Source of the DNA: Tenuifilum thalassicum | Lineage (GTDB): Bacteria > Bacteroidota > Bacteroidia > Bacteroidales > Tenuifilaceae | Length of the DNA stretch: 64,000 nt | Reading direction: 5' to 3' | NCBI RefSeq assembly: GCF_013265555.1 | Contig: NZ_CP041345.1 | Coordinates: 558,001-622,000, forward strand | Part shown: piece by piece, positions 43,660 to 63,436 of the stretch | How positions within the stretch are numbered: position 1 is the first letter of the stretch | How the letters are laid out: the number at the start of each line of letters is the position of its first letter | The notes under the pieces: generated by a model | The model's database searches: none | The model's input: the letters and a program-made list of their open reading frames with translations, nothing else | Told to the model about the DNA's origin: nothing | Program-made: the position numbers and the translations under genes

Positions 43660-43945
43660 AATACACAACTCACGATTTTATTATACAAGCCTTTTTGAGT
43701 TAAACCCACTTGTTTTTATGTTATAAAACATATTTTTCCTCTTAACTTTTTGTCAGGAGGGCACGAAATTTGTGTTATATTTATGTCTATCCATAAATTT
43801 TATTTAAACAACAAAAGAACAAAAAAGAAGAGTGTTATTTGTAACACGCCAACCGTGTGTAGTCGATGCCTAAAGAGGCAAAAGTGAAACTAAATAGTTT
43901 GAATTAAATAAAGTAAGTTATTTTTTTATAATAAAAAACTATCTC
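43660..43945 (+). promoter_or_regulatory. Leader cassette A (operator, promoter, 5' leader)
   Basis: First of five copies. The palindrome TATGTTATAAAACATA is at 43717-43732, with promoter elements TTA and GAAATTTG after an interrupted G tract (GGAGGG). The leader that follows has divergent structure: hairpin GTGTTA/TAACAC near 43831 and GCC/GGC pairing before AAAAGTG. The upstream 60 bases match those of copies B and E. Confidence 0.7.
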
Positions 43946-44194
43946 ATGAATACAAAAAAAAATCTAATGTTATTCTCTGTTCTAGCACTTGGATTGGTGT
44001 TTTCCTATCAAAGCAAAACTTCTACGCAAATTTCAGTTGACACTCAAATTGATGATGCTTTAACTACACTACATTACAGGTTTAAGCATGGAGGATGCTA
44101 TGGAGGGAATATTATAAGTTTCATGACAGAATGTGCAAAACTTAGTGGTAAAGATCAAGATTATACCGGCAAAAAAGATAATTGCCCTAGCTAG
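43946..44194 (+). CDS. Small secreted Cys peptide A (NVEAL-like)
   Basis: This 82-aa peptide has a basic start and hydrophobic segment (KKNLMLFSVLALGLVFS) like a signal sequence. The C-terminal part has three Cys (GGCYGG, TECAK, DNCPS). The shape, size and place before a beta-propeller lipoprotein recall Bacteroidota NVEAL-type peptide precursors, but the NVEAL motif itself is not evident. The peptide is probably exported and then cross-linked or cleaved. It begins about 70 bases after the leader's AAAAGTG motif. The downstream lipoprotein gene at 44295 follows after 100 bases without a clear terminator. Confidence 0.65.
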   Translation: MNTKKNLMLFSVLALGLVFSYQSKTSTQISVDTQIDDALTTLHYRFKHGGCYGGNIISFMTECAKLSGKDQDYTGKKDNCPS

Positions 44195-44294
44195 TTTTTT
44201 AGTCAAAAGGTTAGTGCCCCGATACGTTGATAAATTTAATAGGCACGATGTAATGAGGCATTTTATTATTCATTAACTCAAATAATAAATAAAG

Positions 44295-45449
44295 ATGAAA
44301 AAGTTAAAAGTCTATTTATCAATTTTTATAGGACTACTAATTTGCGCATGTAATTCACCCAAGAACGATAGTAACAAAAATAGTTCTAGCGCAAATAGGG
44401 CTCCGTCAAAACTCACAGTTGTGAGTATTGACACCATTAATTTAAAAACGCCAAATGGTTCAGGCATATATCTGGCTTCATACAACGATGGGAAAATTTA
44501 CTTTCTTGATAGTAAGTTTGGCGTGCTTAACGTTTTCGACACCCTATTCAAGCCATTGGGAACATATTGGGGGATAGGAAACGGACCTTATGAAATACCA
44601 AACATACCCAGAAAATTCTGCGCCACTAAAAAACATGGTACCATTGTTGTTTCTGATTTTATCTTCTTAAAAACAGAAAAACTAGGCAAAAGCTTAAAAA
44701 AAATCCCTATTAATTATAATGTAAAAGAAACCCTATATGAGCTTCAAAATAGCCCCAATGGGGATATGCATGGTATTTACGAGATTGACTGGTCAAGGTC
44801 AGAAAATCGCGTTTCAGTAGCTGGCGTCTATATAGTACTACCCCTTACTAGTTATCACCCAAAGTTCAACGGTTATATGCACGATAAATACTACGAAGAA
44901 TCAAAACCTGTTGGCCTTTTTGATATTAATACGGGTAAACTAGAAAAACTTATTGGGAAAAAGCCACATATCTACCTGGAGAAAAGATACATTCCAAATT
45001 TTGATCAGGTGTTTTTTGATTGCAACGACACCATTATCTATCTTTCATTTGCCGCAGATAGCGGAATATATGCATACAGCACAAACGGTAAGCTACTAAA
45101 AAAGTTTGGGCGCTCACACAAAGGATTTAACTCGGAATACCCCAAATATAATGGGAACTGGGAAGAGGCCGACAAAAACTATGTAAATGAAAGAAGTAGA
45201 TTTAGCTCCTATGGCACAATTAAGGTTGATAAAGAAGGAAACACCATTGTACGACACGTATTCCTGAATAAGGATGCTGGTGGTGTTTTACAAGTTTACA
45301 GAAACGATAATCTTATTGGAGCAATACCTGTTGCTCAAGACTACACGCTAATAGATGTTGTAGGAGAATCAATATATGGCTATTTAAAGAATAACGAGAA
45401 TATTGTTAATGAAAACAGAATTAAACTAATTAGAATAAGATACCAATAG
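44295..45449 (+). CDS. 6-bladed beta-propeller lipoprotein (first)
   Basis: This 384-aa protein has a lipoprotein signal with Cys19 (LLICACNSPK). The mature part carries the repeating blades of the 6-bladed TolB-like propeller family seen in Bacteroidota; its first blade ends in the family's G-x-GPxE turn (WGIGNGPYEIPNIPRKF). It is probably periplasmic or surface-exposed and binds a peptide or other ligand. The family occurs next to NVEAL-type small peptides, as here (44194 stop, 44295 start). Length and signals are intact. No catalytic residues are recognised. Confidence 0.82.
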   Translation: MKKLKVYLSIFIGLLICACNSPKNDSNKNSSSANRAPSKLTVVSIDTINLKTPNGSGIYLASYNDGKIYFLDSKFGVLNVFDTLFKPLGTYWGIGNGPYEIPNIPRKFCATKKHGTIVVSDFIFLKTEKLGKSLKKIPINYNVKETLYELQNSPNGDMHGIYEIDWSRSENRVSVAGVYIVLPLTSYHPKFNGYMHDKYYEESKPVGLFDINTGKLEKLIGKKPHIYLEKRYIPNFDQVFFDCNDTIIYLSFAADSGIYAYSTNGKLLKKFGRSHKGFNSEYPKYNGNWEEADKNYVNERSRFSSYGTIKVDKEGNTIVRHVFLNKDAGGVLQVYRNDNLIGAIPVAQDYTLIDVVGESIYGYLKNNENIVNENRIKLIRIRYQ

Positions 45450-45517
45450 TAATGCTCATTCTTAAAAGAATAATTACAAAATAACCAAATTGCATAATAG
45501 AAATAAAATTTATCATT

Positions 45518-46918
45518 ATGAAAGAGGAAGCAATAAGTATATTTAAATGCTCAGCTACTTTTCTGCTGGCAACTTTTTTCAGCATGGTTATCTGCAGCCC
45601 AGCTGCATTATCACAAAACGTTACAATCAAGACAGTGGGAACAGATTCAACCGCAATTGAATACGCAACTGTTTTTTTAAGATCAAAAAACATTACGTAC
45701 ATCACAAACGATGCTGGTGAGCTTGAACTTGATTCGGCTCAGCTTTTTTCTACCGATACTTTAATATTTACTCACATTAGTTACCAAACCGATTCCCTTA
45801 ATACGCAAGAGCTTAAAACTGATAGCAATGGTGTTTATATTATTTGGCTTGAGCCTAAAGTTCAAAAAATCAACGAAGTTGTCATAAAAAGTAAAAAGAT
45901 ACAATACTATAAAGAACTTATTCGTAATTTCGAAAAATCTAAATCCGATATTCCATTAATTTTTAAAGGTATCCTAACCTATATGGAGACCCAAAATGGC
46001 AAGCCATTGTTCTCCTTGGTTAGCGACATAGTCGCAATGCAAGGCAGCAATCAAAAAGATTACTTTAGCAATCACTCACTAGAATGGGACATTCCACATC
46101 TAACATTTGCTATCCTTGGCTCTTACTACTATATCGATAGTACTTATAGCTCCCCCGACAGTTACAATGAACTGGACAAATGGTTTAAATTTAAAGAATT
46201 GAAATGGACGGAGCTGTTCACTTACGGAAGGGGTCCAATGTCATCAAGGTATTCAAAATATTATGAATACAAATTGGATAGCACTACAGGGGAAGAGAAT
46301 TTAAAAAAGTACTATCTTTCCTTCAGTAGCATAAGAAAAACCAAATCAAAGCACATTACGATTGGAAAAGGGCAGGTAGTGGCTAACAACAAGCTACAAC
46401 CGATCCTTATAGTTTACCATAATCCTTTATATCCAATTCGTTACCCTTCTAACAGAATTCATTTTGCAAGGAATATGAAAGAATATAACGAAGTAGATTC
46501 CATTGGGTTTATAAATAATGACACCTTAAGTGTGCCAGCTTACATTTCATACACTGCAACATTTCCAAATGGAAGAAAAGTGTCTGCTTCTTTGTCTTTC
46601 TATAGCTTTACCCAAAATAATATTCCTAAAAAGAGTGAATACAACACAATTCAAGTTTTAGACTATCTCAATGGACCTGAATATAACTTATATCTTTTAC
46701 CATTTGATAAAGAGTCAACTAGAACTTCAAAAAAGATAATCGAATTTCAGAATGCTTATAACATTAACTACACTTGGGTCTCAAAGCCTTTAACTATTAG
46801 TAAGGAAGAAAATAAATCACATTCAGAGAAATTTATTGAACTGTCACAAAAATACAGGAATCTACTATGGGAAATATTTCAAAACCCGGAATACTGGAGA
46901 TCATTTTCTTTGCAGTAA
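45518..46918 (+). CDS. CarboxypepD-regulatory-like exported protein
   Basis: The protein of 466 aa has a signal peptide (FLLATFFSMVICSPAALSQ). It is followed by a CarboxypepD_reg-like/DUF5686-type N-terminal domain (residues 35-110: VGTDSTAIEYATVFLRSKNITYITNDAGELEL) with the familiar LxxKVQKINEVVIKSKK ending. The remaining 330 residues are beta-rich with no motif I recognise. Proteins of this type act as outer-membrane or periplasmic adaptors in Bacteroidota. It follows the propeller gene by 68 bases and overlaps the remnant lipoprotein frame that begins at 46867. It is possibly part of the same peptide-handling locus. Confidence 0.72.
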   Translation: MKEEAISIFKCSATFLLATFFSMVICSPAALSQNVTIKTVGTDSTAIEYATVFLRSKNITYITNDAGELELDSAQLFSTDTLIFTHISYQTDSLNTQELKTDSNGVYIIWLEPKVQKINEVVIKSKKIQYYKELIRNFEKSKSDIPLIFKGILTYMETQNGKPLFSLVSDIVAMQGSNQKDYFSNHSLEWDIPHLTFAILGSYYYIDSTYSSPDSYNELDKWFKFKELKWTELFTYGRGPMSSRYSKYYEYKLDSTTGEENLKKYYLSFSSIRKTKSKHITIGKGQVVANNKLQPILIVYHNPLYPIRYPSNRIHFARNMKEYNEVDSIGFINNDTLSVPAYISYTATFPNGRKVSASLSFYSFTQNNIPKKSEYNTIQVLDYLNGPEYNLYLLPFDKESTRTSKKIIEFQNAYNINYTWVSKPLTISKEENKSHSEKFIELSQKYRNLLWEIFQNPEYWRSFSLQ

Positions 46919-47511: not shown

Positions 47512-48659
47512 ATGAGATCTAGTTTACAAATATTAATCATAGCAGCCTCACTTCTGCTATTTGGATGCAATAAAACTGAAAATAAAATCATTGAAAAAGT
47601 TGTCGTTGACACTAAAAATCCAGAAACACTTTCCATATCTTTTAAACCCGGTAATTATAAATTATTCGATCTTTCTGAATTTGATACCTTTCTTGGAGAA
47701 ATAGAAAAGATATGTGTGTATAAGGACGACCTAATCATTTACGATGGTCAGCTACGACTATTCAACTATAATAGCAAAAAAGTTATTGATTTAAGCAAAA
47801 AGGGGAAAGGACCCAATGAGTACATTACTGTTAGCGCAATTAGAACTGCTCCTGATGGGGTATACTTTATCGACCGTCGTTCAAGAAAACTAAATAAGGT
47901 AAACTTTAATGGTAAGTTAGAACTTAGCATTGACATCGACTCAAACCCATCGGACTTTTTACTACTAAATGATTCTATGGTAGTTTTTTTTCATGGCAGC
48001 TTTCCAATTAAAGACAAATTATACAGGACTAGCATTTTTAACATAAACTCAAGAAAGCATACTGATTATCAAATATCATATCCCAAAAGCCATTTAAACT
48101 ATTTCTATTTTGAGGACTGGAACAATTTTTCGTACTATAACAAAAGTATAAAATTACGATTCAGTGGCAGCAATGAGATTTACTTCATGGACTCCATGTA
48201 TAGAATAAAACCGATTTTATATTTCGATTTTGGAGATAACACAAAAAGGGAAGAACTTTTAAAAGAAATTATTCCGAAGTTTATGAATTTGTTGAAGATG
48301 CAAATAAAATGAATGTGCTGTTTAGAGTAATATCGTTTTATGAAACCTCAAAGTATTATATTTCGACTACTTTTATTAATAAAGATTGGTATATTTATAT
48401 TTACAACAAGACCACCAAAGCAACAAAGTTCTACAACAAAATAAAACTTGGGGATAACTTGGTAGATATTACTTATGACATCATTCCTAAAGGTTTAGTT
48501 GGTGAATATCTTGTCTTTATATTAGAACCAACCTTTCTTGATGAGAATAAAATTGATTTAACCTCAATGAATAGAGGAAAAGCGTTTATTAATAAATTAG
48601 ATTATACTTCAAATCCCATAATTTTACTAATTAATGAGAACTCGTTAGAGTTAGATTAA
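47512..48659 (+). pseudogene. 6-bladed beta-propeller lipoprotein (second), frameshifted
   Basis: The first frame (266 codons, 47512-48312) gives a lipoprotein signal (LLLFGCNKTE) and the family motif KKGKGPNEYITVSAI. It stops soon after YFDFGDNTK. From about 48252 another frame continues with YSEVYEFVEDANKMNVLF and runs to 48659, adding about 130 residues. This would restore the usual 380-aa length. A single-base shift in the A/G-rich stretch near 48245-48260 explains the break. Either this is a decayed gene or a sequencing error. No leader cassette precedes it. Confidence 0.72.
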
Positions 48660-48846
48660 ATTATTTGAATTTTAACATAAATGCACGGCCATCTACCTTA
48701 GAGGTTAATGCAAAAGTACACTTTGATTCTGTAATTCCTTTCCTGAAAGAATCAGAGAGTAACTACAAAAATTGTTATGGCTAGAATAAAAGCTTCATGC
48801 CATAACTCATAATTATTTAGGCTTTACATTTGTTCAAACGAGTTGC

Positions 48847-49130
48847 TTCCTATGAGCAATACTCAACTCACGATTTTACTAAACAAACCTTTTTGAGTTA
48901 AACCCTCTTGTATTTATGTTATAAAACATATTTTTCCTCTTGACTTTTTGTTAGGGGGGGTAATTTTGTCTTGTGTTTATGTTTAACCATTTAAAAACTT
49001 TTAAAAACAGGAAAAGAAAAATTATACTAAATTTGTACTAAGCCTACCAGGTGGGGGAGGTACACCCAGAGGCACAAACTGGGTCGAAAGGGTGCAAATA
49101 AGTTGTTAATCTAAAATAAAGGAGAAAATT
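48847..49130 (+). promoter_or_regulatory. Leader cassette B (operator, promoter, structured 5' leader)
   Basis: The palindrome TATGTTATAAAACATA is at 48915-48930. A TTG box at 48940-48942 lies 18 bases before TAATTTTG at 48961-48968, a match to the Bacteroidota promoter, and the spacer contains seven G. The leader carries the hairpin CCTAC-CAG-GTGGG near 49044-49056, then ACCCAG/CTGGGT and the invariant CGAAAG before GGGTG. The start codon is preceded by AAAGGAG, an unusually good Shine-Dalgarno for this phylum. Confidence 0.8.
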
Positions 49131-49370
49131 ATGAGAAAGAAGATCTTAAATGCTTTTGTAATAATAGTAATTGTTGCTATTTCAGTTATTAACATAAGTA
49201 ACTCTTATAGTAATGTTGCACCTCAAGTTTTAGAAAAAAAAACCAGAGAGGCTGATTGTTATTGGACCTATCAAACTGGTTGGTTTGCAAGTTGGCATAT
49301 TATGGCTTGTTTTAGTTGTAAACCAGTTGAAGTGAAAGAATTTAGAAACTCATCTATCTGTTCTTTATAA
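49131..49370 (+). CDS. Small secreted Cys peptide B (NVEAL-like)
   Basis: This 79-aa peptide begins MRKKILNAFVIIVIVAISVI, a signal-like segment, and ends in a Cys-rich tail with four Cys (DCYWTY, ACFSC, SICSL). The even Cys number could form two disulfides. It follows the best-conserved leader cassette and has a strong Shine-Dalgarno. A terminator at 49458-49511 lies between it and the downstream beta-propeller lipoprotein, so the peptide would be made in larger amounts than the lipoprotein. No known function; the arrangement resembles NVEAL-type precursor loci. Confidence 0.7.
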   Translation: MRKKILNAFVIIVIVAISVINISNSYSNVAPQVLEKKTREADCYWTYQTGWFASWHIMACFSCKPVEVKEFRNSSICSL

Positions 49371-49457
49371 TTATGATATAAATTATATCCATACTATGGG
49401 CTTAATTTCTACAATTTTTGTTAAGTTCTGAACTAAATTTTAATGTTTTTACAAAAT

Positions 49458-49511
49458 GAAACACCCAGCATATCTTAAACCTATAATAAAAGTTTGGGTG
49501 TTTCATTTTTG
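49458..49511 (+). terminator. Leaky terminator between peptide B and propeller gene
   Basis: GAAACACCCA (49458-49467) pairs with TGGGTGTTTC (49495-49504), a 10-bp stem with a long loop, followed by ATTTTT. It lies before the propeller start and could set the ratio of peptide to lipoprotein. Confidence 0.65.
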
Positions 49512-49562
49512 AAAATTAAGTTATTATCAAATATCAAAATATTAATTTTTAACATGTTATCC

Positions 49563-50633
49563 ATGCGAAATCTATCCTATATTTTTATCGGCCTGCTCTT
49601 GTTTTCAAGCTGTGGCAGTATCTCTACTAATAAAGAAATAAAAGTTTCAAGCTTCCCTGTAGAAAAGGAGCTAGTAGGCAAATGGGTTTCACTTGAGAAT
49701 TCCCAATTCCCTGACTACATTGGGATAGTTGATTCTTTCATCCTTACTAAAACATTTCAACAAAGCGATAGCTTTCTATTTCAACTTTACATCAAAAATT
49801 GCCATAAACAATATCTACGATTTGGCAAAGCAGGTAAAGGGCCAAATGAGTTTTTAAACCCAAAGCCAACTGGGCAAGTAGAAACAAAAGGTAATAAAAT
49901 TGGCCTATGGGTGAACGATTTGTACAAACAAAAATACATGTTTATAAACCTTACCCAGACTATTAATGACAAAAAAACAATAATTGATAAGGAGTTTATC
50001 ACACCAAAAGAAGCTGAAATTGGTCTTGATGCATTTATCCTAAAAAACAATGACATAGCTGGCACTTCAATGAGCGAAAAAGGGCGACTATTCTATTACA
50101 ACCATAAGGATAAAACAACCAAATGGGTGGAATATTTTCCTAAGGTCACCTATCCTCCAGTAAAGGAGGAACAGCTTCACAATTTATATTCAAGTACAAC
50201 GAGAATCAGCCCAAACCAAAAGTATATCGTGTCTGCATTAAGGTTGTTTAAAAGGATTGATGTCTTTAACGATAAGTTAGATCATATTTTTTCTATTACT
50301 TTTAAAGACAGCCCCAAAGAACCAAACTTTTTCAAAGACGAAAAGAATCCAATACCTAATAACCTGGTACATTACTATACCGATCTTTTTCTTTCATCAA
50401 AATATATCTATGCACTTAATTCTGCCATAACACAAACCGACCTCTCAAAAGAGAACGACACCCGTTACTCCGAAGTTCAGGTATTTACTTACACTGGCGC
50501 TCCTATTGCACTATACAAGCTAGACCATTTCATAGGTTCCTTTACTGTTGACGAAGAGAATGGTATAATCTGGGGCATTTCAATGCCCAAAGAAGATTTA
50601 AGCACCCAAATTGTTAGCTACAACATAAAATAA
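49563..50633 (+). CDS. 6-bladed beta-propeller lipoprotein (third)
   Basis: This protein of about 356 aa has a lipoprotein signal (MRNLSYIFIGLLLFSSCGS) when started at 49563; the frame extends further upstream into the terminator at 49458-49511. Its blade turn FGKAGKGPNEFLNPKPTGQV matches the family G-x-GPNEF motif. It is a paralogue of the propellers at 44295, 47512 and 52569, with low identity outside the motif. It probably binds a peptide or glycan at the cell surface or in the periplasm. It is 2 bases upstream of the PsbP-like gene, so both are probably co-translated. Confidence 0.82.
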   Translation: MRNLSYIFIGLLLFSSCGSISTNKEIKVSSFPVEKELVGKWVSLENSQFPDYIGIVDSFILTKTFQQSDSFLFQLYIKNCHKQYLRFGKAGKGPNEFLNPKPTGQVETKGNKIGLWVNDLYKQKYMFINLTQTINDKKTIIDKEFITPKEAEIGLDAFILKNNDIAGTSMSEKGRLFYYNHKDKTTKWVEYFPKVTYPPVKEEQLHNLYSSTTRISPNQKYIVSALRLFKRIDVFNDKLDHIFSITFKDSPKEPNFFKDEKNPIPNNLVHYYTDLFLSSKYIYALNSAITQTDLSKENDTRYSEVQVFTYTGAPIALYKLDHFIGSFTVDEENGIIWGISMPKEDLSTQIVSYNIK

Positions 50634-50635
50634 TT

Positions 50636-51160
50636 ATGAAATCTAAACTATTTTTATTTACGGCACTACTTCTCTCAACAGGAGTGGCTTTTAGCCAAAC
50701 GTGGAATAACCCATTTTTTGAAATGCAAATTTCAGCCAATTGGAGGAAACCTGACCGGGATTACAGCAGCTACCCTCCGTTAAAATATAACCAAGGGCAG
50801 GTGTTACTATACAAAGATGTAAGATTTACACCAGAAGAAGATGAAAAAAACGGTACAATATTAGTTGAAACATTTATAGACAATGATTCTCAAAAGTTAT
50901 TTTATAATGACTTTATTACTAAGTCATTTAAAACACTAAGTAAAAAACACATCAAAGTCAACAACATGACTTGCTTAAAAGAAAGTGTAATAAAAAAAGT
51001 TTTTAGCCAAAAAGGCACGTTGTATTACTACTGTACAAAATGGTATATTCAGGGCTCTAAGAGAGTTTATAGAATTGAATTTGGAGCTTATGACTTGGAA
51101 ACATATAAAAATCATATAGATGAGGTAGAAAATTTTATTACAACTTTTAAGGAAAAGTAG
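50636..51160 (+). CDS. Secreted protein of unknown function (PsbP/DUF1795-like)
   Basis: This 174-aa protein has a signal peptide (LFLFTALLLSTGVAFSQ). The mature domain (WNNPFFEMQISANWRKPDRDY to the end) has the alpha-beta pattern of PsbP-like or DUF1795 proteins, ending in a helix (KNHIDEVENFITTFKE). It is probably periplasmic and might bind a small molecule or partner protein. It sits between the propeller lipoprotein and the thioredoxin-like gene, with the stop of each touching the start of the next. I cannot assign a function from sequence. Confidence 0.65.
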   Translation: MKSKLFLFTALLLSTGVAFSQTWNNPFFEMQISANWRKPDRDYSSYPPLKYNQGQVLLYKDVRFTPEEDEKNGTILVETFIDNDSQKLFYNDFITKSFKTLSKKHIKVNNMTCLKESVIKKVFSQKGTLYYYCTKWYIQGSKRVYRIEFGAYDLETYKNHIDEVENFITTFKEK

Positions 51161-51763
51161 ATGAAACGTTTTAGTATAATATTAACTGTCATTTTATTAA
51201 GCTCTTCTGTTATATCACAATTTATGTTTCAAAGATATAGAAAAGCAAGCAAGTCTATGATAGATAGCTTATCGTACAAATGCAAAAAAAATACTGAAGA
51301 AAATAGAAAGTTAAAACTATATTTTGTTTATCAAAACAACATATTAAATAAGAAAAAAATAAGTGTATTTTTAAACCAAAGTAGGTTTCTTTTACACGGT
51401 GACAAATGCCCCCATCTATTAGTAGCGTGTATTAGTAAAACATGCTGTAGTATTTGTGGGAAAAGGCTTCTTGTTGACATGCTTAATTTTAAAAATAAAC
51501 ACAAGTTTATAAAGATATTAATATTAAGTGACATTCCTGAAAAGGATTTTTTTTCTATGATGGGTATAACAAAAAATAAAAAAGAAATTATTTTTAAATA
51601 TGATCAAGAAATGTTTCTTGATAATGAAAGTTATTTTACATATCCACTCTTATTTGTCACAAACAATAAAGGTTTAGTAATGCAGCTATTTATCCCAGAT
51701 CTGATGAAAGAATACAATGAATTATTTTTTGATGTTATATTGCCAGATCTAATTTCAAAATGA
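51161..51763 (+). CDS. Thioredoxin-like membrane-anchored protein
   Basis: This 200-aa protein has an N-terminal membrane anchor or signal (ILTVILLSSSVISQF). A Cys-rich segment (LLVACISKTCCSICGKRLLVDML, residues 83-105) is followed by an ILILSDIPEKDF strand. The pattern is like a bent thioredoxin domain with a C-x-x-C (CSIC) pair in the periplasm. A role in peptide disulfide formation or reduction would fit the Cys-containing small peptides of the locus. The resemblance to known thioredoxins is weak, and the gene directly follows the PsbP-like one, so the three genes form an operon. Confidence 0.55.
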   Translation: MKRFSIILTVILLSSSVISQFMFQRYRKASKSMIDSLSYKCKKNTEENRKLKLYFVYQNNILNKKKISVFLNQSRFLLHGDKCPHLLVACISKTCCSICGKRLLVDMLNFKNKHKFIKILILSDIPEKDFFSMMGITKNKKEIIFKYDQEMFLDNESYFTYPLLFVTNNKGLVMQLFIPDLMKEYNELFFDVILPDLISK

Positions 51764-51953: not shown

Positions 51954-52020
51954 CTCGAAGTCTGCGACTTTGTTGTCCAGAAGTAGTGGCGTAGATACGC
52001 TTCGCTAACCTACGCCGAGC
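51954..52020. repeat. REP-like hairpin repeat, copy 2
   Basis: The word CTGCGACTTTGTTGTCC and the inverted repeat GGCGTAG/CTACGCC (51988-51994 with 52010-52016) repeat the element at 43591-43653 almost base for base. Leader cassette C starts directly afterwards. Confidence 0.7.
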
Positions 52021-52027
52021 AAGGGAA

Positions 52028-52290
52028 AATTTCCGAAAACCAAGTAAGTTCTCCACTAAAACATATTATATGTTATAAAACATATTTTCACTCTTGACTT
52101 TTTGTTAGGGGGGGGTAAATTTGCTTTGTATTTATGTCTAACTTAAAACCATATTTAAACAACAGGAAAGAAGAATATTTACTACATTCGTACCAAGCTC
52201 ACCAGGTGGGCGCGGTACGCCCGGAGCACCACCGGGGCGAAAGGGTGAAACTAATTTTTGGTATAATAAAATCCTAAATCTTTGTTTAAT
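52028..52290 (+). promoter_or_regulatory. Leader cassette C (operator, promoter, structured 5' leader)
   Basis: The palindrome TATGTTATAAAACATA is at 52069-52084, and the TTG box is followed after 19 bases (with eight G) by TAAATTTG. The leader hairpin is GCTCAC-CAG-GTGGGC near 52197-52211, with CCCGG/CCGGG next and CGAAAG then GGGTG. The sequence upstream of the palindrome matches cassette D on the other strand. Confidence 0.8.
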
Positions 52291-52498
52291 ATGAAAAAAA
52301 ACAAGACTTTTTGTTTTACTTATCGCATTTTTTCTCATAACTATAGTTAGCCTTCAAATGGCTTCAAAAAAGGCATCTGCTCAACAAATAACTGTTGCAT
52401 GCGAATATTGCCCCGGGAGTTTCTGTATTATCGATTGGCAATTGTGGTTTGGCTTTTCCCCAATAAAAGTAAATGGTCCTTTGAGACCAGCTCAATAA
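52291..52498 (+). pseudogene. Small secreted Cys peptide C, frame interrupted in poly-A
   Basis: ATG at 52291 is followed by a run of eight A. In the annotated frame translation ends after 19 codons. Removing one A gives a 68-aa peptide with a signal-like start (LFVLLIAFFLITIVSLQ) and a Cys tail (CEYCPGSFC), ending at 52496-52498. This matches the peptides behind leaders A and B. The change may reflect slippage (reversible or programmed) or a sequencing error. Confidence 0.65.
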
Positions 52499-52568: not shown

Positions 52569-53627
52569 ATGCGCTTATTATATTTCACACTGTTTGTCAC
52601 TACCAGTTTTATTTTAAATTCTTGTTTAAGCAATAATCATGAAACAGATTTTGCTGATTTTCCAGAATATAATGAAATCTCCACGGCAAATGTGGTTCAA
52701 TTGCCTAGTATTTTGATTTTCCCTAATTCAATTCGGGTTTCCGATACACTATTATTTATATTAGACATTAAGGATGTGTCGGGATTTTTAAAAATATATA
52801 GCAAAAAAGATTTTCATCTTATTAAAACTTTTGGTGAGATTGGGAAAGGCCCTAACGAGTTTCTAAATCCACATTTAAGCTATGTCAACACCAAAAAAAA
52901 TGTTATTTTTCTTTCAGACGTAGCTGGAAAAAAACTTTATAAAATAGATTTGAAAAAATTAATTTTTAGCAAGGTGACAACTCTTTCAGACTACTCTATC
53001 AGTTACAAAGAGTATTACCAATTATTTTCTTCCTTTGCCTTATCTTCAGACGGGAAGTTCTACGCCTCTGGCCCGAAAGGTTATGACAGATTTGTTTTAT
53101 GGGATTCTGCTTTTAATATTTCAAATCTGGGCGGGAAACCACTCGAGGATTGGGATTTAGAAGAACCCATACGATCATTATTTTATTTTAACTTTCTTGT
53201 TTACGATTCTATAAATCATTCTATTTTTTGTGCATATTTAAATAAAGATAGAATTTGTAAGTTTGATATTAATAGTAAAAAAACATTTGAGATTTTTGGG
53301 AAAAAACACAAGGATAAACGGCCAGAATCTATCGGCCTCAATGGCTTAAACCAGGATTACCGTGCGTTTGGTGATTTAAAGATTTGGGAAACCAATCTAA
53401 TTGCTCCATATCTTGGTGATAATCAGATATATTATAAAAATGACGGTTATGAATTTGTTTGGCCACAGAAACTGTTAGTTTTTGATCTTAACCTAAACCC
53501 AAAAGTTATTCTTAAACTTAACCATCAAATCTTAAGCATGGACATTGATGAATCCGGACTTTTATATATTCTCACACCAGATGAAGAAAATAAGTTGTAC
53601 ATCTACAACCTTAAAAAATACTTGTAA
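52569..53627 (+). CDS. 6-bladed beta-propeller lipoprotein (fourth)
   Basis: This 352-aa protein has a lipoprotein signal (MRLLYFTLFVTTSFILNSCLSN, Cys19). The blade motif FGEIGKGPNEFLNPHLSY again marks the family, and later strands (LSSDGKFYAS, LILTPDEEN-like) show the remaining blades. The protein is intact, unlike the second copy. It is probably the partner of peptide C, being the first complete gene behind that leader. A thioredoxin-like lipoprotein follows about 100 bases downstream. Ligand unknown. Confidence 0.82.
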   Translation: MRLLYFTLFVTTSFILNSCLSNNHETDFADFPEYNEISTANVVQLPSILIFPNSIRVSDTLLFILDIKDVSGFLKIYSKKDFHLIKTFGEIGKGPNEFLNPHLSYVNTKKNVIFLSDVAGKKLYKIDLKKLIFSKVTTLSDYSISYKEYYQLFSSFALSSDGKFYASGPKGYDRFVLWDSAFNISNLGGKPLEDWDLEEPIRSLFYFNFLVYDSINHSIFCAYLNKDRICKFDINSKKTFEIFGKKHKDKRPESIGLNGLNQDYRAFGDLKIWETNLIAPYLGDNQIYYKNDGYEFVWPQKLLVFDLNLNPKVILKLNHQILSMDIDESGLLYILTPDEENKLYIYNLKKYL

Positions 53628-53730: not shown

Positions 53731-54273
53731 ATGAAATCAACTAAAACTTTGTTTCATTTACTTGTACTAATTCTGTTTTCTTGTAGTAGAATCAACACAA
53801 ATAAAGACGAATGCAATACCAGCTTATTAAATAAAAAATTAATCCTGCCCGATTCCATATCAGTAGTAACTAATGATACTATTTCATTTCATAAAACAAG
53901 TGAAGTATTAGCATTAAATAAACCTACATTAATAATTACGATTTGGGGTGATTGTCATGTCTGTGCACACAAAACATTTGAGTGGGCTGACTTTATCAAT
54001 CACAATAAACTAAATATACAGACACTTTTAGTTGTGATCACCGATACCCCTTCATATTTTTTAAGGATTTTTTCAGATCAAATCCCAGAAATTGGAATCG
54101 TTGCTATCGACAAAAGAATAATAAATGAAAACAATCTCTGTGAATTAAGACCCGACTTAAATGTTTTCCTTATTGACCCTAATCAGTTTGTTAGAATTCA
54201 AGGGGACCCATTTATTTATAAAGAGTTAAAAGAAAAATATTTGAAAATGATAAAAAGTAACAGTTTTGAATAG
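53731..54273 (+). CDS. Thioredoxin-like lipoprotein
   Basis: This 180-aa protein starts with a lipoprotein signal (LVLILFSCSRI, Cys19). The mature part has a strand LIITIWGDCHVCAHKTFEW, giving a CxxC-like active site (CHVC) in a thioredoxin-type context, then TLLVVITDTPSYF and a C-terminal LIDPNQFVRIQGDP strand with a Pro that could be the cis-Pro. It could reduce or make disulfides in the periplasm, a plausible activity for maturing the locus's Cys peptides. It is one of two thioredoxin-like proteins in the peptide region, the other being at 51161. Confidence 0.7.
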   Translation: MKSTKTLFHLLVLILFSCSRINTNKDECNTSLLNKKLILPDSISVVTNDTISFHKTSEVLALNKPTLIITIWGDCHVCAHKTFEWADFINHNKLNIQTLLVVITDTPSYFLRIFSDQIPEIGIVAIDKRIINENNLCELRPDLNVFLIDPNQFVRIQGDPFIYKELKEKYLKMIKSNSFE

Positions 54274-55518: not shown

Positions 55519-55540
55519 CAGATTCTTCCAATTTTTTGTA

Positions 55541-58500: not shown

Positions 58501-58696
58501 CAAGTTAACCCCTATCCTATTAACCATTTTATCGACCGTTCTGGGACTTCTACCTTTTGTGATATTTGGGGAAGAACCATTTTGGTACTCATTAGCCCTT
58601 GGAACAATAGGCGGGCTGATTTTCAGCATTCCTGTAATTCTGATTTTTCTGCCTGCTCTACCAGGCGTGTTAAAACAAAATAGAAAACAACATTAA
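55541..58696 (+). CDS. RND efflux permease subunit 1
   Basis: The 1051-aa protein has the twelve-helix, two-large-loop architecture of RND (HAE1/AcrB-like) transporters. The proton-relay region is in SLGLIIDNTLVTLDHL, retaining one Asp of the usual pair. In the second half, the helix around GGLVVNSAIYILNEMN lacks the Lys of AcrB. It uses the proton gradient to export substrates from the inner membrane or periplasm. It pairs with the next gene (one base apart), like MdtBC-type heteromultimers. Substrate unknown. Its place beside peptide genes invites a peptide-export role, but drug-type substrates are equally possible. Confidence 0.9.
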   Translation: MRTSKRISGNSSLMPFGFRPYPVILIFILFALLGAVVAPRLSLKLYPSQTGEQLFINFYMYGAKPELVEMLATSRIESSISLIEGVKSIKSTSGEGWGEIDIEIAKNYDIENIRAKIVASIREIYPKLPHNISYPEVSEVSESESYKKRLLVYTLSGNLPSWQIKQLATNNLIPSIIGIDGVAEANIQGATELDWQIWLNHAAMEQFGISPSAVAKALKPYTLWEGVGETSLNNYSSHEVSITGPGLNRENLGSIPICMVNGRLIHLGQIARIGQRQRDADVAFRINGQPAVYLIISSTPSANQIVLADKIFETIKQKKEELPGIHFGKTYDATDQLRSDLNKNLIRTATSLGILLLFVLLTYRSFRYLWVVGFALTVNILLAAFLYFLLKIEIHLFSLSGFTLSLGLIIDNTLVTLDHLRAKGNMKIFTSLLAATLTTIAALASIFFMQSEQATNLVDFAWVIIINLVISLLVALFLIPALHKKTTGTENKKPKYAHLRTWVKIATGYKSFSLFASKNKRWGIVLGVLIIGIPTFLLPIKIESESFWANLYNKTIGSNTYQYEIKPITDKILGGTLRLFYNSSWANHSWSIPERTKLNVVFKMPDGATLQQADEVAKIFESHILSFEGVENLVTNVNRSRGTLTIYFDKQAESTPLPYELKAYLERLSITQAAADFYIYGVGLGFSNSTSTNFANSIITLKGYSHKALMSWALQFADSIAKNPRVNKVWITGGERWLFTDELKHYSNFDTEKLLSRNINPQSIFSKLSNYTKSNAWHGWIPIENHVKRMEISSDIELLSDFEINQLVMNLDSSGVRVGDVSTFHTRFVRDNIYREDQQYIITLAYNLIGPDKLIEKTLKKQIEKINSVLPQGFLAKAPYVNWSTEKDLWSYYLIFLMLLLIFIISAALFESLVQPLTVISIIPLSFAGVFLTYWIFELPFDQGTIASFLLLGGLVVNSAIYILNEMNHLNKNAEAPLRNYFKALRYKLTPILLTILSTVLGLLPFVIFGEEPFWYSLALGTIGGLIFSIPVILIFLPALPGVLKQNRKQH

Positions 58697-58697
58697 T

Positions 58698-61600
58698 ATG
58701 GTACGCTACCTCATAAACCGACCAATCGCTGTAATAATGGTTTACCTTGCAATGCTACTGCTGGGCATCTACTCTGTTTTTTTTATTCCTGTTTCTCTTT
58801 TACCCGATATCGACGCACCAGAGGTAACCGTTAAAGCAGATTATCCTGGCAAGTTGGCTAAGGAGATAGAACAATCGGTTACAGCACCATTAAGATTCCA
58901 GTTGCAACAAGTAGGCAACCTCGAATCGTTGGAAAGCGAAACTCGCGATAACGAAGCTGTAATATCCTTGCGATTCAAATACGGGACCAATGGGGAAAGA
59001 ATATTCTTCGACGTAAACGAGAAGGTTGACCTGGCCATGTCGACCATTCCGCGTGAAGTTAGCAGGCCAAGAGTAATCAGAGCCAGCTTATCGGACCTTC
59101 CGGTTTTCAATGTGAATATAACTTACAAAGACACAGCTGCTAAAGCCAAACAGTTGTTAGAGCTTAGTCAGCTCACCCGTTTTGTCCTACAAAAGCGCCT
59201 CGAACAGCTACCCGAGGTTGCCTTTGCCGATGCATCAGGTTTTATTCAACCCGAAATAAGGATTACCCCCAATCAGGCCAAACTTGATGCGCTCGGAATT
59301 TCCTATGCCGAAATAGCCGAAGCCCTTAACAATGCAATGTACGACCTGGGAAGTATCAGATTTAAACAAGGGCAAATGGTTTTTGACGTTACCTTTGAGT
59401 CGAGTATTGTCAAACCCGAAGACATTGGAAACGTTCTACTAAGCGTTTCGGGCAGGGTTTTCAATCTGAACGAACTGGTCACAATCGAAACGCTCCCCCG
59501 AACACAACAAGGAACTTTCCTGCTTAATGGAAAACCTGGAGTTAACCTTGCCATACTTAAAACCTCAAATGGAAAAGTATCGGAACTAAAACAAAGTGTA
59601 ATTAATTTACTTGACCAGTTTAGGACCGATTATCCTGAACTGGAGTTTAGCATAACCAACGACCAATCCTATATACTTAACCTATCGATTGGCAACTTAC
59701 GAAACTCTTTGATTTTAGGGTTAATACTTGCCATTGGGGTTATGTTCCTTTTTATGGGAAGCTACCGTAGCCCATTATTAATGGCAGTAACCATTCCCGT
59801 TTCGCTGGTAATTTCCATGTTCTTTTTTCATATTCTCGGTTTATCGGTTAACATCATCTCATTGGCCGGACTAATTCTCGGGGTGGGTATGATGATTGAT
59901 AACTCAATTGTTGTAATAGACAATATCAACCAATGGCAAAAGCAAAACATACCGTTTGAAGAGGCAGTTGTAAAAGGTACCAACGAGGTGGTAACACCTT
60001 TGCTCTCCTCAATGCTAACAACATGCTCGGTTTTTCTACCGCTTATCTTCCTTAGTGGTATTGCCGGTGAAATGTTTTACGACCAGGCCGTTGCCGTTTC
60101 AATCGGACTTATCGTGTCGTTTTGGGTTTCAATCACGTTAATGCCAACCCTATATTTCAACTTACATCAATTTAAAAAAATCGAATCCGCAAGACCAATT
60201 GTTAACCTAAAACAACCATTCCTCCGCGGGCACTTCTTTGTTGAAAGGCATAAGGGTTTGATTCTATCCCTTTCATTTGCTCTTGTGCTAGGGCTACCTA
60301 TCATCTTTAAGGGAATGGATAAGCAACAAATCCCATCGCTATCGCATAATGAGTTAATGGCCAGGATAACCTGGGGTAACAATGTAAGCTTTGACGAAAA
60401 CCTTAAAAACATGCTCAAGCTTGAGTCAAATTTAAAACCATTTGCAAGGCAAATCGCTGCTTACGTAGGTCGGCAGCAATTTTTACTAATAAAAGGCTTC
60501 GAGCAAGAGGAGGGTGAAACAATCCTTTACATCGAGCTAAAAAAGGGTATAAATATCGACCAAACAACAAACGCCATTCAGCTCTTAGTAAAACAGATGG
60601 CAAGTAATGCCAGGGTTAGTTTCACCTACCCCGAAACTGCATTCGACCGCATTTTTCCCAATTCGGGTTACACCCTAATAGCCAAGTTCTATCCAGGAAA
60701 GAATACCGGCAGCATTTCAAAAGAGACAATCCAAAAAATGAAAGCGATGCTATTGGAGTTAAATGAATCACAGATGAGCATCACCTCATCAGACTCAACT
60801 GAACAGATAGCCCTTCGGATAATTCCAGAGCGCTTATTGCTTTACCAGGTTGACTTAGAATCGGTAATTAATGCGGTAAGCATGGAGCTAGGTACCATGC
60901 AGCTTTCACAGCTAAATTTTGAGCAACAGACCCTACCGATATCCTATGGTAATAAAGTAAAAAAACTAACCGAGCTAATAGACCAAACCCGGATAAGAAA
61001 CAGCCAGGGAATTCAAGTCCCTATAAAAGAGCTGATTGATGTACAATTCATCAAAGCGCCCCGTACCATAAAAGCAGACGGGACGGGAGTGTATGTCCCA
61101 CTATACATAAATACCACTGATGATAACGCGGAAAATGTAGTTGAAAAATTAAAAAGTTCAAAATCTGCAAGCGATACCTATACGCTGGGAGTTGAAGGCG
61201 AGTATTTTAAATCGAGGAATACAATGGCTGAACTTCTAGTAGTGTTGCTTGTATCGGTGATGCTGCTGTACTTTATTCTAGCAGCACAATTCGAGTCGGC
61301 CTGGCAACCCTTGGTGGTTCTCATTGAACTCCCTATCGATTTCTCACTTGCTCTTCTGGCATTATGGTTATTCGGGGGTTCTATTAATTTAATGAGCTTG
61401 ATAGGGCTGGTTGTTATGGGGGGTATTGTAATTAACGATTCCATTCTTAAAATCGATACCATCAACAGGCTTCTCAAGAATGGAATGGGAATTGACGAGG
61501 CCATTGAAAAGGCAGGTATTAGAAGGGTTAAGGCCATAGTAATGACCAGCGCAACCACCATTCTGGCCATGTTGCCAATACTTTTTGGCACGGATATCGG

Positions 61601-61739
61601 TTCAGAGCTTCAACAACCAATGGCTATTACAATAATGGGCGGTATGTTTTTAGGTACAATGGTCAGCCTATTTATTGTACCTTTACTTTATAAATTACTG
61701 TTTGGGATTTTTAGTATTAATAAAAACAAAATGGGGTAG
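58698..61739 (+). CDS. RND efflux permease subunit 2
   Basis: This 1013-aa protein is a second RND permease with the same layout as subunit 1. Motifs include GVGMMIDNSIVVIDNIN (TM4 Asp region), the periplasmic pore segments, and GGIVINDSILKID in the second half. It starts 1 base after subunit 1 and shares its operon, so a heteromeric pump with the adaptor at 54436 is likely. It ends at 61739, 193 bases before the stop of the minus-strand peptide D, so the two units converge. No channel protein follows. Confidence 0.9.
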   Translation: MVRYLINRPIAVIMVYLAMLLLGIYSVFFIPVSLLPDIDAPEVTVKADYPGKLAKEIEQSVTAPLRFQLQQVGNLESLESETRDNEAVISLRFKYGTNGERIFFDVNEKVDLAMSTIPREVSRPRVIRASLSDLPVFNVNITYKDTAAKAKQLLELSQLTRFVLQKRLEQLPEVAFADASGFIQPEIRITPNQAKLDALGISYAEIAEALNNAMYDLGSIRFKQGQMVFDVTFESSIVKPEDIGNVLLSVSGRVFNLNELVTIETLPRTQQGTFLLNGKPGVNLAILKTSNGKVSELKQSVINLLDQFRTDYPELEFSITNDQSYILNLSIGNLRNSLILGLILAIGVMFLFMGSYRSPLLMAVTIPVSLVISMFFFHILGLSVNIISLAGLILGVGMMIDNSIVVIDNINQWQKQNIPFEEAVVKGTNEVVTPLLSSMLTTCSVFLPLIFLSGIAGEMFYDQAVAVSIGLIVSFWVSITLMPTLYFNLHQFKKIESARPIVNLKQPFLRGHFFVERHKGLILSLSFALVLGLPIIFKGMDKQQIPSLSHNELMARITWGNNVSFDENLKNMLKLESNLKPFARQIAAYVGRQQFLLIKGFEQEEGETILYIELKKGINIDQTTNAIQLLVKQMASNARVSFTYPETAFDRIFPNSGYTLIAKFYPGKNTGSISKETIQKMKAMLLELNESQMSITSSDSTEQIALRIIPERLLLYQVDLESVINAVSMELGTMQLSQLNFEQQTLPISYGNKVKKLTELIDQTRIRNSQGIQVPIKELIDVQFIKAPRTIKADGTGVYVPLYINTTDDNAENVVEKLKSSKSASDTYTLGVEGEYFKSRNTMAELLVVLLVSVMLLYFILAAQFESAWQPLVVLIELPIDFSLALLALWLFGGSINLMSLIGLVVMGGIVINDSILKIDTINRLLKNGMGIDEAIEKAGIRRVKAIVMTSATTILAMLPILFGTDIGSELQQPMAITIMGGMFLGTMVSLFIVPLLYKLLFGIFSINKNKMG

Positions 61740-61931
61740 TACTTAATGGTTCTATTAACAGTATGCATCTTCAATCTTAAGTATTGGCAATTTTATGCAT
61801 CAGCCTATTGCAAATCCTTAAATAATGTAATATTAGATAAGTTATTCCTTTTCCAAAAAACACAATAATAATACTTGGAAAGCGCCCTTAAACTTATCAT
61901 ATTCTCACCATAGAAACCTCCATGTTTACAT

Positions 61932-62057
61932 CTACAAACATAGCGACGATCTCCACTGGTACGCTAATTTCTTCACCCCTTTAGCTTTAGTTGGTTCCTG
62001 GTTTAAAATTAATGCGACTGAACCAATGATTGAAACAAATAATGAGATTTTTTTCAT
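61932..62057 (-). CDS. Small secreted peptide D
   Basis: This short gene, starting at the ATG at 62057, encodes a 41-aa peptide: a signal-like segment (ISLFVSIIGSVALIL), a basic stretch and a C-terminal SSLCL with one Cys. The frame is open 24 codons upstream, but those codons lie in the conserved leader. It stands behind leader cassette D in the same relation as peptides A to C. It is much shorter than the others, so it may be truncated. No partner gene is downstream; it converges on the RND operon. Confidence 0.55.
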   Translation of the reverse strand: MKKISLFVSIIGSVALILNQEPTKAKGVKKLAYQWRSSLCL

Positions 62058-62330
62058 AACAAACTCATCTATTAATAAAAATGACATACACTCTTTCGCC
62101 TCGGTTGTGCCTCCGGTTGTGCCGCCCACACCTTGTGGGCTAGAAACAAATGTAGTTAAATTTTTCTTTTCCTGTGTCTTAATGTTGTTATATGGTTAAA
62201 CATAGATGTAAGACATAGTTAATCCCTCCCCATAACAAAAACTAAGAGGTAAAATGTGTTTTATAACAATATGTTTTAGTGGAAAACTTACTTTGTTTTA
62301 GGAAATTTTCCCTGAATCTATTTATATTCT
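62058..62330 (-). promoter_or_regulatory. Leader cassette D (operator, promoter, structured 5' leader)
   Basis: Reading the minus strand, the operator is degenerate (TTGTTATAAAACACA, plus 62255-62270), with TTA and TAACTATG boxes and an interrupted G tract (GGGGAGGG). The leader hairpin is GCCCACA-AGG-TGTGGGC, a compensatory version of the other copies, followed by CGAAAGAGTG. The upstream 50 bases match cassette C. Confidence 0.7.
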
Positions 62331-62684
62331 GCTCAAGTTAATAAGGATATGGATGGAAGTATTAATTGTGGAATTGTTGTGGTTGTTAACAAAAGCGAGT
62401 AAAAGAAACCATAGAAACTTAGGGAAAAATCAGCTCAATAATAAAAAGGTAGAATTTGTCTGCTATTTTGCATATATTTAGCTAATTAAGATATTTTAAA
62501 GGGCGCTGTTGTAAAATTAGCTGAAAGGCATAACTAACGTTTTACAGAATAACCATACTATTCCCCTTCCTTAAAATAGATTGAAATGTTTGGTATTGAG
62601 TAAAATATGAAACAAGAAACAAGCAACTTGTAAGTTTACTTTATTTTTTACTAATCATTTACTAGCAGACATCGCGAAATAAAA
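62331..62684. other. Intergenic region between cassette D and the bacteriocin-like pair
   Basis: This AT-rich stretch of about 350 bases lies between two minus-strand units. A 42-codon plus-strand frame occurs at 62353-62481 but has no signal or neighbour that supports it. I see no other feature. Confidence 0.35.
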
Positions 62685-62711
62685 GAGGCTATCCTTTTTT
62701 AGATAGCCCCT
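62685..62711 (-). terminator. Terminator after the two-helix membrane protein
   Basis: AGGGGCTATCT and GGATAGCCTC pair (62685-62694 with 62701-62711) with G-U pairs, followed on the minus strand by a T run. It ends the transcript of the peptide E and 59-aa membrane-protein genes. Confidence 0.78.
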
Positions 62712-62722
62712 ACTGGAGTTAA

Positions 62723-62902
62723 TTAAATCTTGCTTAAATAAGAGCTAATCAAAAGAAGCCCTATCGTTATAATAGCAATAAGTAGTGTTCGAGTTTTTAT
62801 TTTAATTTCGTCATTTGGTTTTTTTATAATAATATATAACAAACCTACAATTGCTATTACAACTACCAAACTGACTCCGTATAACATGATTTTATCCCAC
62901 AT
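62723..62902 (-). CDS. 59-aa two-helix membrane protein (possible immunity protein)
   Basis: An ATG at 62902 opens a frame of 59 codons ending at TAA (62723-62725). The protein has two hydrophobic segments (SLVVVIAIVGLLYIII and LLIAIITIGLLLISS) separated by a charged loop (KKPNDEIKIKTR). It begins 12 bases after the stop of the bacteriocin-like peptide E and is followed by a terminator. Small two- to four-helix membrane proteins of this type are often immunity factors for hydrophobic bacteriocins, which I offer as inference only. It could instead be an unrelated membrane peptide. Too short for many gene finders. Confidence 0.6.
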   Translation of the reverse strand: MWDKIMLYGVSLVVVIAIVGLLYIIIKKPNDEIKIKTRTLLIAIITIGLLLISSYLSKI

Positions 62903-62914
62903 ATTTTTTGTGTT

Positions 62915-63136
62915 TTAATCACCTGTTATCATGCATTCTGTGAAATCTGCCACAATAATGGCAGCGCCAATCCAACCAGCATAACGGCTTGCTATTTTAC
63001 CCGCAGCTTTGATAATTACAGCCTTTGAGGCTTGAATTGCTGCAGATGAACCTACAGCCGATATTAATTCAGAAAAAGCGGCAACGTCTAATACTTCCAT
63101 AGCACAGTTCCACGCACCTTTTGAACTTTTTAGCAA
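62915..63136 (-). CDS. Ala/Gly/Ile-rich bacteriocin-like peptide E
   Basis: This 73-codon frame starts at a TTG (63136) because no ATG precedes it; the first ATG is at codon 13. The body is a long Ala/Gly/Ile/Val-rich amphipathic helix (SELISAVGSSAAIQASKAV, then IGAAIIVADFTECM) between two Cys (GAWNC and TECM). The composition resembles circular or two-peptide class II bacteriocins. It has no signal peptide, unlike the other leader peptides, and lacks a clear GG leader. It lies behind leader cassette E and just before a two-helix membrane protein. The start is uncertain. Confidence 0.55.
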   Translation of the reverse strand: MLKSSKGAWNCAMEVLDVAAFSELISAVGSSAAIQASKAVIIKAAGKIASRYAGWIGAAIIVADFTECMITGD

Positions 63137-63436
63137 CCTTTTTTCTGAAGAGCTATTAAAAATGTTTGTTTCAAAGTGTTATAAGTTACACACTTTCGTC
63201 CCAGTTGTGCCTCCAGGTTTACAGCCCCCACCTGGTGGGCTAGGCCCGAATGTAGCAAAAATTTCCTTTTCATGTTGCTTAATGTTTTTATGTGGTTAAA
63301 CATAGATGTAAGACAAAACTACCCCCCCCTAACAAAAAGTCAAGCGGAAAAATATGTTTTATAACATAAACGCAAGTGAGTTTAACTCAAAAAGGCTTGT
63401 ATAATAAAATTGTGAGTTGAGTATTGCTCATAGGAA
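63137..63436 (-). promoter_or_regulatory. Leader cassette E (operator, promoter, structured 5' leader)
   Basis: On the minus strand the operator TATGTTATAAAACATA (plus 63353-63368) precedes a TTG box, a spacer with eight G, and TAGTTTTG, a full match to TAnnTTTG. The leader hairpin is CCCAC-CAG-GTGGG, followed by the CGAAAG loop and GTGTG. The upstream 90 bases match those of cassette B. Confidence 0.8.

Follow-up and report, generated by a model that had tools for sequence, protein, structure and literature searches.

In Bacteroidales, NVEALA loci (PF14055 together with PF15869 or PF17170) encode a small peptide with a hydrophobic N-terminus and a variable, cysteine (Cys)-containing tail, with a propeller-type lipoprotein behind the peptide and a CxxC protein nearby. 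A comparable arrangement is found in a 64-kb stretch of Tenuifilum thalassicum DNA (hereafter the window; the genome comprises 3.2 Mb on one contig), in which a promoter-plus-leader unit stands at five places ahead of different genes. An earlier note on this stretch had named the NVEALA/beta-propeller setting as its nearest relative, and the common layout bears this out.

NVEALA genes were found in 7 of 149 genomes of the order. Open reading frames (ORFs) read by eye in the genomes G130, G146 and others place the lipoprotein behind the peptide. The three lipoproteins tested match PF17170 or PF15869, one of them below the cut-off, and one CxxC lipoprotein near a G130 NVEALA gene carries DUF1573. 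A uniform front end with a variable tail recurs in these loci. For instance, three of the five NVEALA genes inspected in G130 share 329-539 nucleotides (nt) at 81-92%, from upstream DNA into the N-terminal codons, and both genes inspected in G146 share 192 nt at 92%; the C-terminal sequences of the genes with common upstream DNA differ. Eight loci are listed for G099: four of them (two overlapping) have N-terminal coding parts that are 96-99% identical, and another two have 541 nt in common at 79%. No common leader is seen among the three NVEALA genes found in G131. The NVEALA loci are unlike the Tenuifilum unit in leader sequence, and a covariance model of the 72-nt Tenuifilum leader core (R2) finds nothing in five G130 loci. 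PF14055 had no match among 10 proteins at an E-value up to 1 and none in the T. thalassicum genome at 0.001. No paper on NVEALA-type peptides with propeller partners was found among openly licensed PMC papers, and none on comparable concerted evolution with Cys-rich peptides appeared by title among the matches listed.

On the RNA side, the nearest concept appears to be the cyanobacterial Downstream-peptide motif (RF01704), which is similar to the glnA RNA and is a glutamine riboswitch. The motif has been described as a structured leader RNA in the potential 5' untranslated regions of many short ORFs, typically of 17-100 amino acids (aa) and outside known families (PMC2864571). The likeness lies in a structured leader RNA ahead of varied short ORFs; however, RF01704 belongs to another phylum and gives no covariance match here.

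A promoter-plus-leader unit in fifteen copies

Of the five window copies, B, C, D and E are complete and A is without most of the leader core (Table 1). Repeats join all five places: A/B (104 nt, 91%), B/E (125 nt, 90%), C/E (169 nt, 75%), D/E (152 nt, 78%) and, upstream, C/D (46 nt, 93%). The B/E and C/D matches agree with the earlier proposal that whole cassettes were duplicated. With copy B as query, BLAST recovered the other four window places at E-values of 1.0e-43 to 1.5e-17 and a sixth copy, F (G000:C1:3010570-3010754, 5.5e-63), about 2.4 Mb from the window copies; further matches in this genome reached only 0.003 or weaker. A covariance model built from copies B-F (R1) gave scores of 146-161 bits for these five and of 38 bits for copy A, and another match of 28 bits in the same genome (E-value 0.63) was taken as chance. 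Copy A keeps the promoter and the upstream block, but its core is degenerate (47-56% identity) and the word CGAAAG is missing. The claim that the five copies share palindrome, promoter, leader words and spacing thus stands for the repeats and the palindromic dyad, and fails for the core of A.

The covariance-model search that the earlier note had suggested revealed copies beyond T. thalassicum. R1 found them in 3 of 27 genomes of the family (T. thalassicum; G013, n=5; G017, n=2), all of one genus (three of its seven genomes). R2 found them in 2 of 393 genomes of the order (T. thalassicum; G402, n=2) under stricter filters and in a draw that evidently did not include G013 and G017; T. thalassicum is counted in both searches. 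The total is 15 copies, six in T. thalassicum (A-F) and nine on contigs of three other metagenome-assembled genomes (MAGs), labelled G13a-e, G17a-b and G402a-b. An exact pattern search of a genome-contig collection, which may leave out records near T. thalassicum, returned six stretches, five from the three MAGs with known copies (Bacteroidales SpSt-1180, G017; Bacteroidota JPNA_maxbin.169, G402; Bacteroidales Gw_SlDig_bin_127, G013) and one from Pseudomonas. R2 confirmed neither the Pseudomonas match nor a pattern match on one viral contig. Used as a query against 20 relatives, the tRNA-His stretch located the neighbouring site in two genomes of the same genus, G014 and G018, and the stretch adjoining tRNA-His carries no copy in either. 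The distribution of the leader motif is narrow.

The aligned copies have in common the dyad, a promoter with a G-rich spacer and an A-rich stretch, to which B, C, D and E add a G+C-rich core ending in CGAAAG-N-GTG. In every window copy, 32-35 nt separate the dyad TGTTATAAAACA from the -7 box downstream of it; with variants of the dyad, the distance is 31-35 nt across all 15 copies, in which the dyad takes the form YGTTNTANAAYA. This form is Crp-like, and we take it as a candidate Crp/Fnr-type operator only. The word TAnnTTTG, expected by the earlier note in the window copies, is exact in B, C and E and is not found in A and D; overall, 11 of 15 copies have the exact word, and A, D, F and G13e deviate at -7. 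A palindrome-plus-promoter pattern matched B, C, E and one further place in the T. thalassicum genome and missed A, D and F. Upstream of the exact -7 boxes, TTTG occurs at 17-20 nt in 8 of 11 copies and TTG at 18-19 nt in the other three. The Bacteroides sigma-ABfr promoter has TTTG near -33 and TAnnTTTG at -7 (PMC7366714), and by sequence the unit carries a promoter of this type. It differs in the dyad 31-35 nt upstream of the -7 box and in a G-rich run within the spacer. This run, seen between -33 and -7 in copies A-F and their relatives, often consists of 7-8 consecutive Gs and is sometimes interrupted; it is a possible slippage site for promoter spacing.

The RNA-like core of the leader

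The leader ends in a 72-nt, RNA-like core that has three predicted stems and a putative pseudoknot. Its G+C content is 49-64%, compared with 19-30% in the 5' half and 20-32% in the 100 nt after the core, and its identity is 74-97% among 13 copies (A and G13e left out). Without guidance, RNAalifold predicted on 13 copies P1 (6 pairs), P2 (5 pairs, CAG loop) and P3 (5 pairs). The pseudoknot, in which the P3 loop (RCAC) is paired with 3' GUGY, was added by hand to this structure. On the 14 cores other than A, with the pseudoknot included, 92.2% of 293 cells are paired, against a mean of 89.5 in shuffles and 34-51% in slid versions. Five pairs are changed on both sides, against a shuffled mean of 2.0, and 3 of 500 shuffles show as many. 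Two of the five are in the pseudoknot, where CAC/GUG becomes CUC/GAG in G13e and a C-G pair becomes A-U in E. From this moderate covariation a selected structure in the core is likely and a pseudoknot is plausible.

Rfam covariance models found in the window only two tRNAs at gathering score and no RF01704 match. Rfam 15, run on copies B, G17a and F at E-values up to 10, gave 8, 1 and 1 matches, all far below gathering score and none to RF01704. The HDV-like, twister and pistol ribozyme folds, compared by eye, did not fit.

A different possibility is that the leader is a short upstream coding frame, starting ATG TTT AAT and running into the core, whose peptide would act by attenuation. An ATG is indeed found at the same place in 11 of 15 copies, and the frame is open to the core end in seven (C, E, F, G13a-d). 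Coding is nonetheless unlikely, because 4 of 15 copies lack the ATG, the frame is interrupted by stops in B, D and G13e, and the P3 loop varies in length by one base, which shifts the frame between copies; in addition, the frame of A ends early, and changes in P1 keep the pairs. As the upstream frame is not conserved, a leader-peptide attenuator was rejected and is regarded as highly improbable.

Variable gene modules behind uniform front ends

Behind the leader, a small Cys peptide usually comes first and a 6-bladed beta-propeller lipoprotein second, in many cases followed by a thioredoxin-like CxxC protein. The core GUG is 36-44 nt from the ATG in nine copies (B, C, F, G13a-d, G402a, G402b). 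An intact small peptide ORF follows 7 of 15 copies (A, B, G13a-d, G402b), and these peptides, read by eye, are small with a hydrophobic N-terminus and a Cys-containing tail; no Pfam or NCBIfam family was above cut-off for them. The G402a peptide gene, which begins like that of G13b, is cut by the contig end, and broken, relic or N-terminally shortened peptide genes follow four copies (C, D, G13e, G17a). Small ORFs, expected in the earlier note to follow always, are thus present behind 12 of 15 copies at most. Repeats, covariance-model copies and module content together uphold its claim of one shared control unit ahead of different peptide genes.

Two further statements about the peptides were not sustained. 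They had been held to be mutually unrelated, yet peptides A and D are homologous, with 10 of 14 residues identical (RxKHGGxYGxNxIS) and alignable DNA. The C-terminal part of peptide C is weakly similar to the G13e relic (28% over 36 residues). A Cys peptide had also been expected behind all five window copies, but the frames of C and D are broken and the frame behind E is a piece of a longer lipoprotein-like family; among the five window units, a full core and an intact peptide ORF occur together only in B. As for the frame behind E, it has no ATG and matches the C-terminal end of frames of 234 (G240) and 222 residues (G174); a relative from the same genus (G018), itself interrupted by stops, has the lipoprotein-like N-terminal part missing from E. 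Members of this family (L107, L108, L109; window 62723-63136) have a C-terminal Cys...Cys Gly/Ala-rich domain and are followed by a small membrane-protein-like ORF, and the pair looks like an undescribed two-gene unit.

Propellers stand directly behind the peptides of B, C and G13a-d at E-values <0.01 (PF15869 or PF17170), those of G13a, c and d below the curated cut-off, and in G13a, b, c and d alike a CxxC protein comes next. The three PF15869 matches of the T. thalassicum genome are all inside the window, two of them over the cut-off. A profile of the propeller alignment had seven PDB matches at 0.1, the best being 4raa, a putative exported protein (2.4e-5), followed by NHL-repeat chains and rotavirus VP4 at 0.003-0.085. 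Behind peptide A, a propeller is not supported, as the protein at 44295..45449 has no Pfam match at 0.01 and its structure model, with a predicted local distance difference test score (pLDDT) of 39, is uninformative. The model of the CxxC protein behind copy C (53731..54273; pLDDT 69.6) resembles thioredoxin-fold proteins, with AhpC, CcmG and DsbE among the best 50 Foldseek hits (8.5e-5 to 4.6e-4). A profile of the CxxC alignment had no PDB match at 1, and the 200-aa CCSIC protein behind copy B aligns with the CxxC proteins in the Cys pair alone. Between the first and second genes, terminator-like hairpins were returned by script in C, F, G13a, G13b and G17a and seen by eye only in B, G13c, G13d and G402b; none is convincing in A and D.

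Front ends and modules group differently. The 5' halves are 94-98% identical within G013 (a-d), within G017 and within G402, and G13e is 73-76% identical to G13a-d. The propellers of G13a and G17a are 87% identical and those of G13c and G402b 83%, whereas G13a and G13c have 36% aa identity. In front of these dissimilar propellers, G13a and G13c are nearly alike, with 99% identity in the 5' half, 96% in the core and 97% over the 150 nt that follow, the signal-peptide codons included; beyond these, identity drops to 41-60%. Orthologous modules in G017 and G402 carry front ends like their own genome's copies. An unrooted FastTree of the 15 copies groups those of T. thalassicum (0.998), G402a/b (0.979) and G17a/b (0.825) and leaves the G013 copies unresolved as one clade. 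Since front ends are alike within genomes and modules are orthologous between genomes, the simplest reading is concerted evolution, in which front ends would have been copied among units after module divergence. The earlier note had expected diversifying selection on the peptides; what the comparison points to is rather this concerted evolution of the front end. The G402 copies come from a genome of another family, whose HemW pieces are 41% and 48% identical to T. thalassicum, compared with 58-61% within the genus. A transfer between families was set aside because the peptidase on contig G402:C186 shows 89% and 90% identity to the peptidases that adjoin the cassettes of G013 and G017; the contig has probably been misbinned from a genome of the same genus, or is a transferred island. 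The concerted-evolution argument holds without G402:C186 belonging to another family.

Such copying raises the possibility that the promoter alone matters and that the core is inert, a remnant whose likeness is due to gene conversion, as the strong front-end likeness within G013, G017 and G402, the modest single-sequence folding energies and an intact peptide A behind a degenerate core might suggest. Between genomes, however, core identity is 75-94% (leaving out A and G13e), compared with 45-68% in the neighbouring 5' half (G017-G402, 77-82%), so that copying within genomes cannot explain the conservation of the core, and a passive core is considered unlikely. It is somewhat harder still to regard the core as a DNA recombination element, a folded-strand or site-specific exchange site whose pairing would reflect DNA hairpins and which would be the junction for swapping front ends onto new modules. 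G13b and G402a fit such a site: identity between them rises from 47% upstream of the -7 box to 58% in the 5' half and 94% in the core, and it is 100% over the remaining 119 nt before the contig ends. Inverted repeats also lie just upstream of A and C, with a similar one upstream of F. Yet every core follows its promoter in one and the same orientation, with a regular spacing to the ATG. The G13a/G13c tract runs through the signal-peptide codons, which means that its end is not fixed at the core, and ordinary gene conversion accounts for the mosaic.

Around the window copies several other features were recorded. The hairpin repeat GTAGYGGCGTAGATACGCTTCGCTAAYCTACGCC is located at 43617-43650 and 51983-52016, and the similar one near copy F at about 1392-1422 of L002. 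A tRNA-Met gene is directly followed, at 42726-43620, by three repeat units of about 356 bp, which contain short ORFs of the type YVYAIYSE..DKIYIGYTSDLEARL. We presume these ORFs to be GIY-YIG-like; a Pfam search of one of them gave no match. A resistance-nodulation-division (RND) efflux operon adjoins the cassettes in three genomes (L062 1-8000, L059, window 54436-61739), and one G017 leader copy at a contig start is directly upstream of such an operon, without a peptide gene. The propeller gene at 47512..48659 is split into two ORFs, with 55% and 46% identity to a G013 ortholog that is a single ORF of 382 aa, and the several broken frames of the cluster, this one included, suggest decay or sequence errors. 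For the propeller behind peptide B, the listed start is a TTG inside the hairpin, and the in-frame ATGs at 49554 or 49563 are likelier starts.

Table 1. Leader copies, genes and hairpin of the cassette cluster (window coordinates)
Feature	Position	Strand	Remarks
Copy A	43658..43889	+	upstream block, palindrome 43719-43730, -7-like GAAATTTG 43765-43772, degenerate leader
Peptide A	43946..44194	+	82 aa, hydrophobic N-terminus, 3 Cys, no Pfam/NCBIfam family above cut-off
Lipoprotein-like protein behind peptide A	44295..45449	+	384 aa; propeller by position only
466-aa protein	45518..46918	+	CarboxypepD_reg-like domain, 1.1e-5, below cut-off
TolB-like propeller lipoprotein gene	47512..48659	+	3.8e-4, below cut-off; frame broken near 48309
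Copy B	48843..49097	+	upstream block, palindrome 48917-48928, -7 TAATTTTG 48961-48968, leader to 49097, RNA core 49026-49097
Peptide B	49131..49370	+	79 aa, hydrophobic N-terminus, Cys-rich C-terminal half, no family above cut-off
Hairpin GAAACACCC...GGGTGTTTC with T-run	49454..49509	+	between peptide B and its propeller; terminator-like by eye, script returned none
TolB-like 6-bladed propeller lipoprotein	49494..50633	+	PF15869, 5.3e-13
174-aa protein	50636..51160	+	signal-like N-terminus, no family
200-aa protein	51161..51763	+	CCSIC motif, no family
Copy C	52022..52250	+	upstream block common with D, palindrome 52071-52082, -7 TAAATTTG 52116-52123, RNA core 52179-52250
Peptide C gene	52291..52497	+	frame broken soon after start codon; Cys-rich C-terminal part in another frame
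TolB-like/DUF5128 propeller lipoprotein	52569..53627	+	PF15869, 1.8e-10; 49% identical to G13e propeller
180-aa lipoprotein-like protein	53731..54273	+	CxxC, no family; behind copy C
Relic peptide gene D	61840..62057	-	homologous to peptide A; broken frame, ends approximate
Copy D	62086..62313	-	upstream block common with C, palindrome 62257-62268, -7-like TAACTATG 62214-62221, RNA core 62086-62157
59-aa membrane-protein-like ORF behind E	62723..62902	-	similar small ORFs follow relatives (by eye)
TTG-start 73-aa ORF behind E	62915..63136	-	C-terminal piece of longer lipoprotein-like family
Copy E	63186..63440	-	upstream block, palindrome 63355-63366, -7 TAGTTTTG 63314-63321, RNA core 63186-63257

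A possible common control of secreted peptides

We consider it fairly probable that the members of a polymorphic peptide/propeller family are jointly controlled through a leader RNA acting in cis. The front end would consist of an operator-like dyad (TGTTNTANAACA), a Bacteroidota housekeeping-type promoter and an untranslated leader of about 130 nt, which would end in the structured core, with P2 nested in P1, then the P3 hairpin, whose loop would pair with the GUG after CGAAAG. The core would act as RNA, and one transcription factor at the dyad together with one RNA-level signal would set the peptides together. Because of the hairpin often found between peptide and propeller, more peptide than propeller would be made, and the leader may then act on read-through, mRNA stability or translation.

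Several points weigh against this control by a leader RNA. Three of the 15 copies do not stand before a small-peptide gene or relic: a 117-aa secreted protein lies behind F, a fragment of another protein behind E and no peptide gene behind G17b. The covariation is less marked in other counts: eight cells of the 14 cores are changed on both sides and 22 of 500 shuffles reach as many, and with 12 cores four pairs are changed and 38 of 500 shuffles equal this. The pseudoknot's one A-U to U-A change stems from G13e, whose P3 pairs poorly, and its outer pairs fail in 3 and 5 of 14 copies. Single sequences fold modestly better than shuffles (z -0.26 to -2.16, 11 of 14 cores tested), and the lowest-energy folds of B, D, E, G13e and G402a (5 of 11) depart clearly from the consensus. 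Homogenisation is weaker in T. thalassicum, where B, D, E and F are 76-82% identical in the 5' half, compared with the other genomes, and C is 62-67% identical to them. Finally, no conserved masking of the start codon, no terminator between core and start codon and no conserved expression platform of the kind a metabolite riboswitch would have were seen by eye, which leaves stability, translation and read-through at the hairpin as candidate actions.

More tentatively, the core might represent a new class of pseudoknotted cis-regulatory RNA, so far of one Bacteroidales lineage, that gives a common input to a polymorphic secreted-peptide system whose front end (promoter, RNA and sometimes signal peptide) is homogenised by gene conversion, with cognate peptide/propeller/redoxin modules being replaced behind it. 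If true, the system would parallel, in bacteria, those families in which a conserved leader is joined to a variable Cys-rich tail. The mosaic of uniform front end and variable modules, together with the joint inheritance of peptide and propeller, suggests that the two may be cognate partners. The shared structured leader would offer a handle, since finding what the RNA or the operator responds to would make the condition of peptide production testable. For the biology of this lineage, the finding means that one switch-like stretch is placed before many different secreted-peptide genes, the switch being alike in each genome while the peptides and their partners differ.

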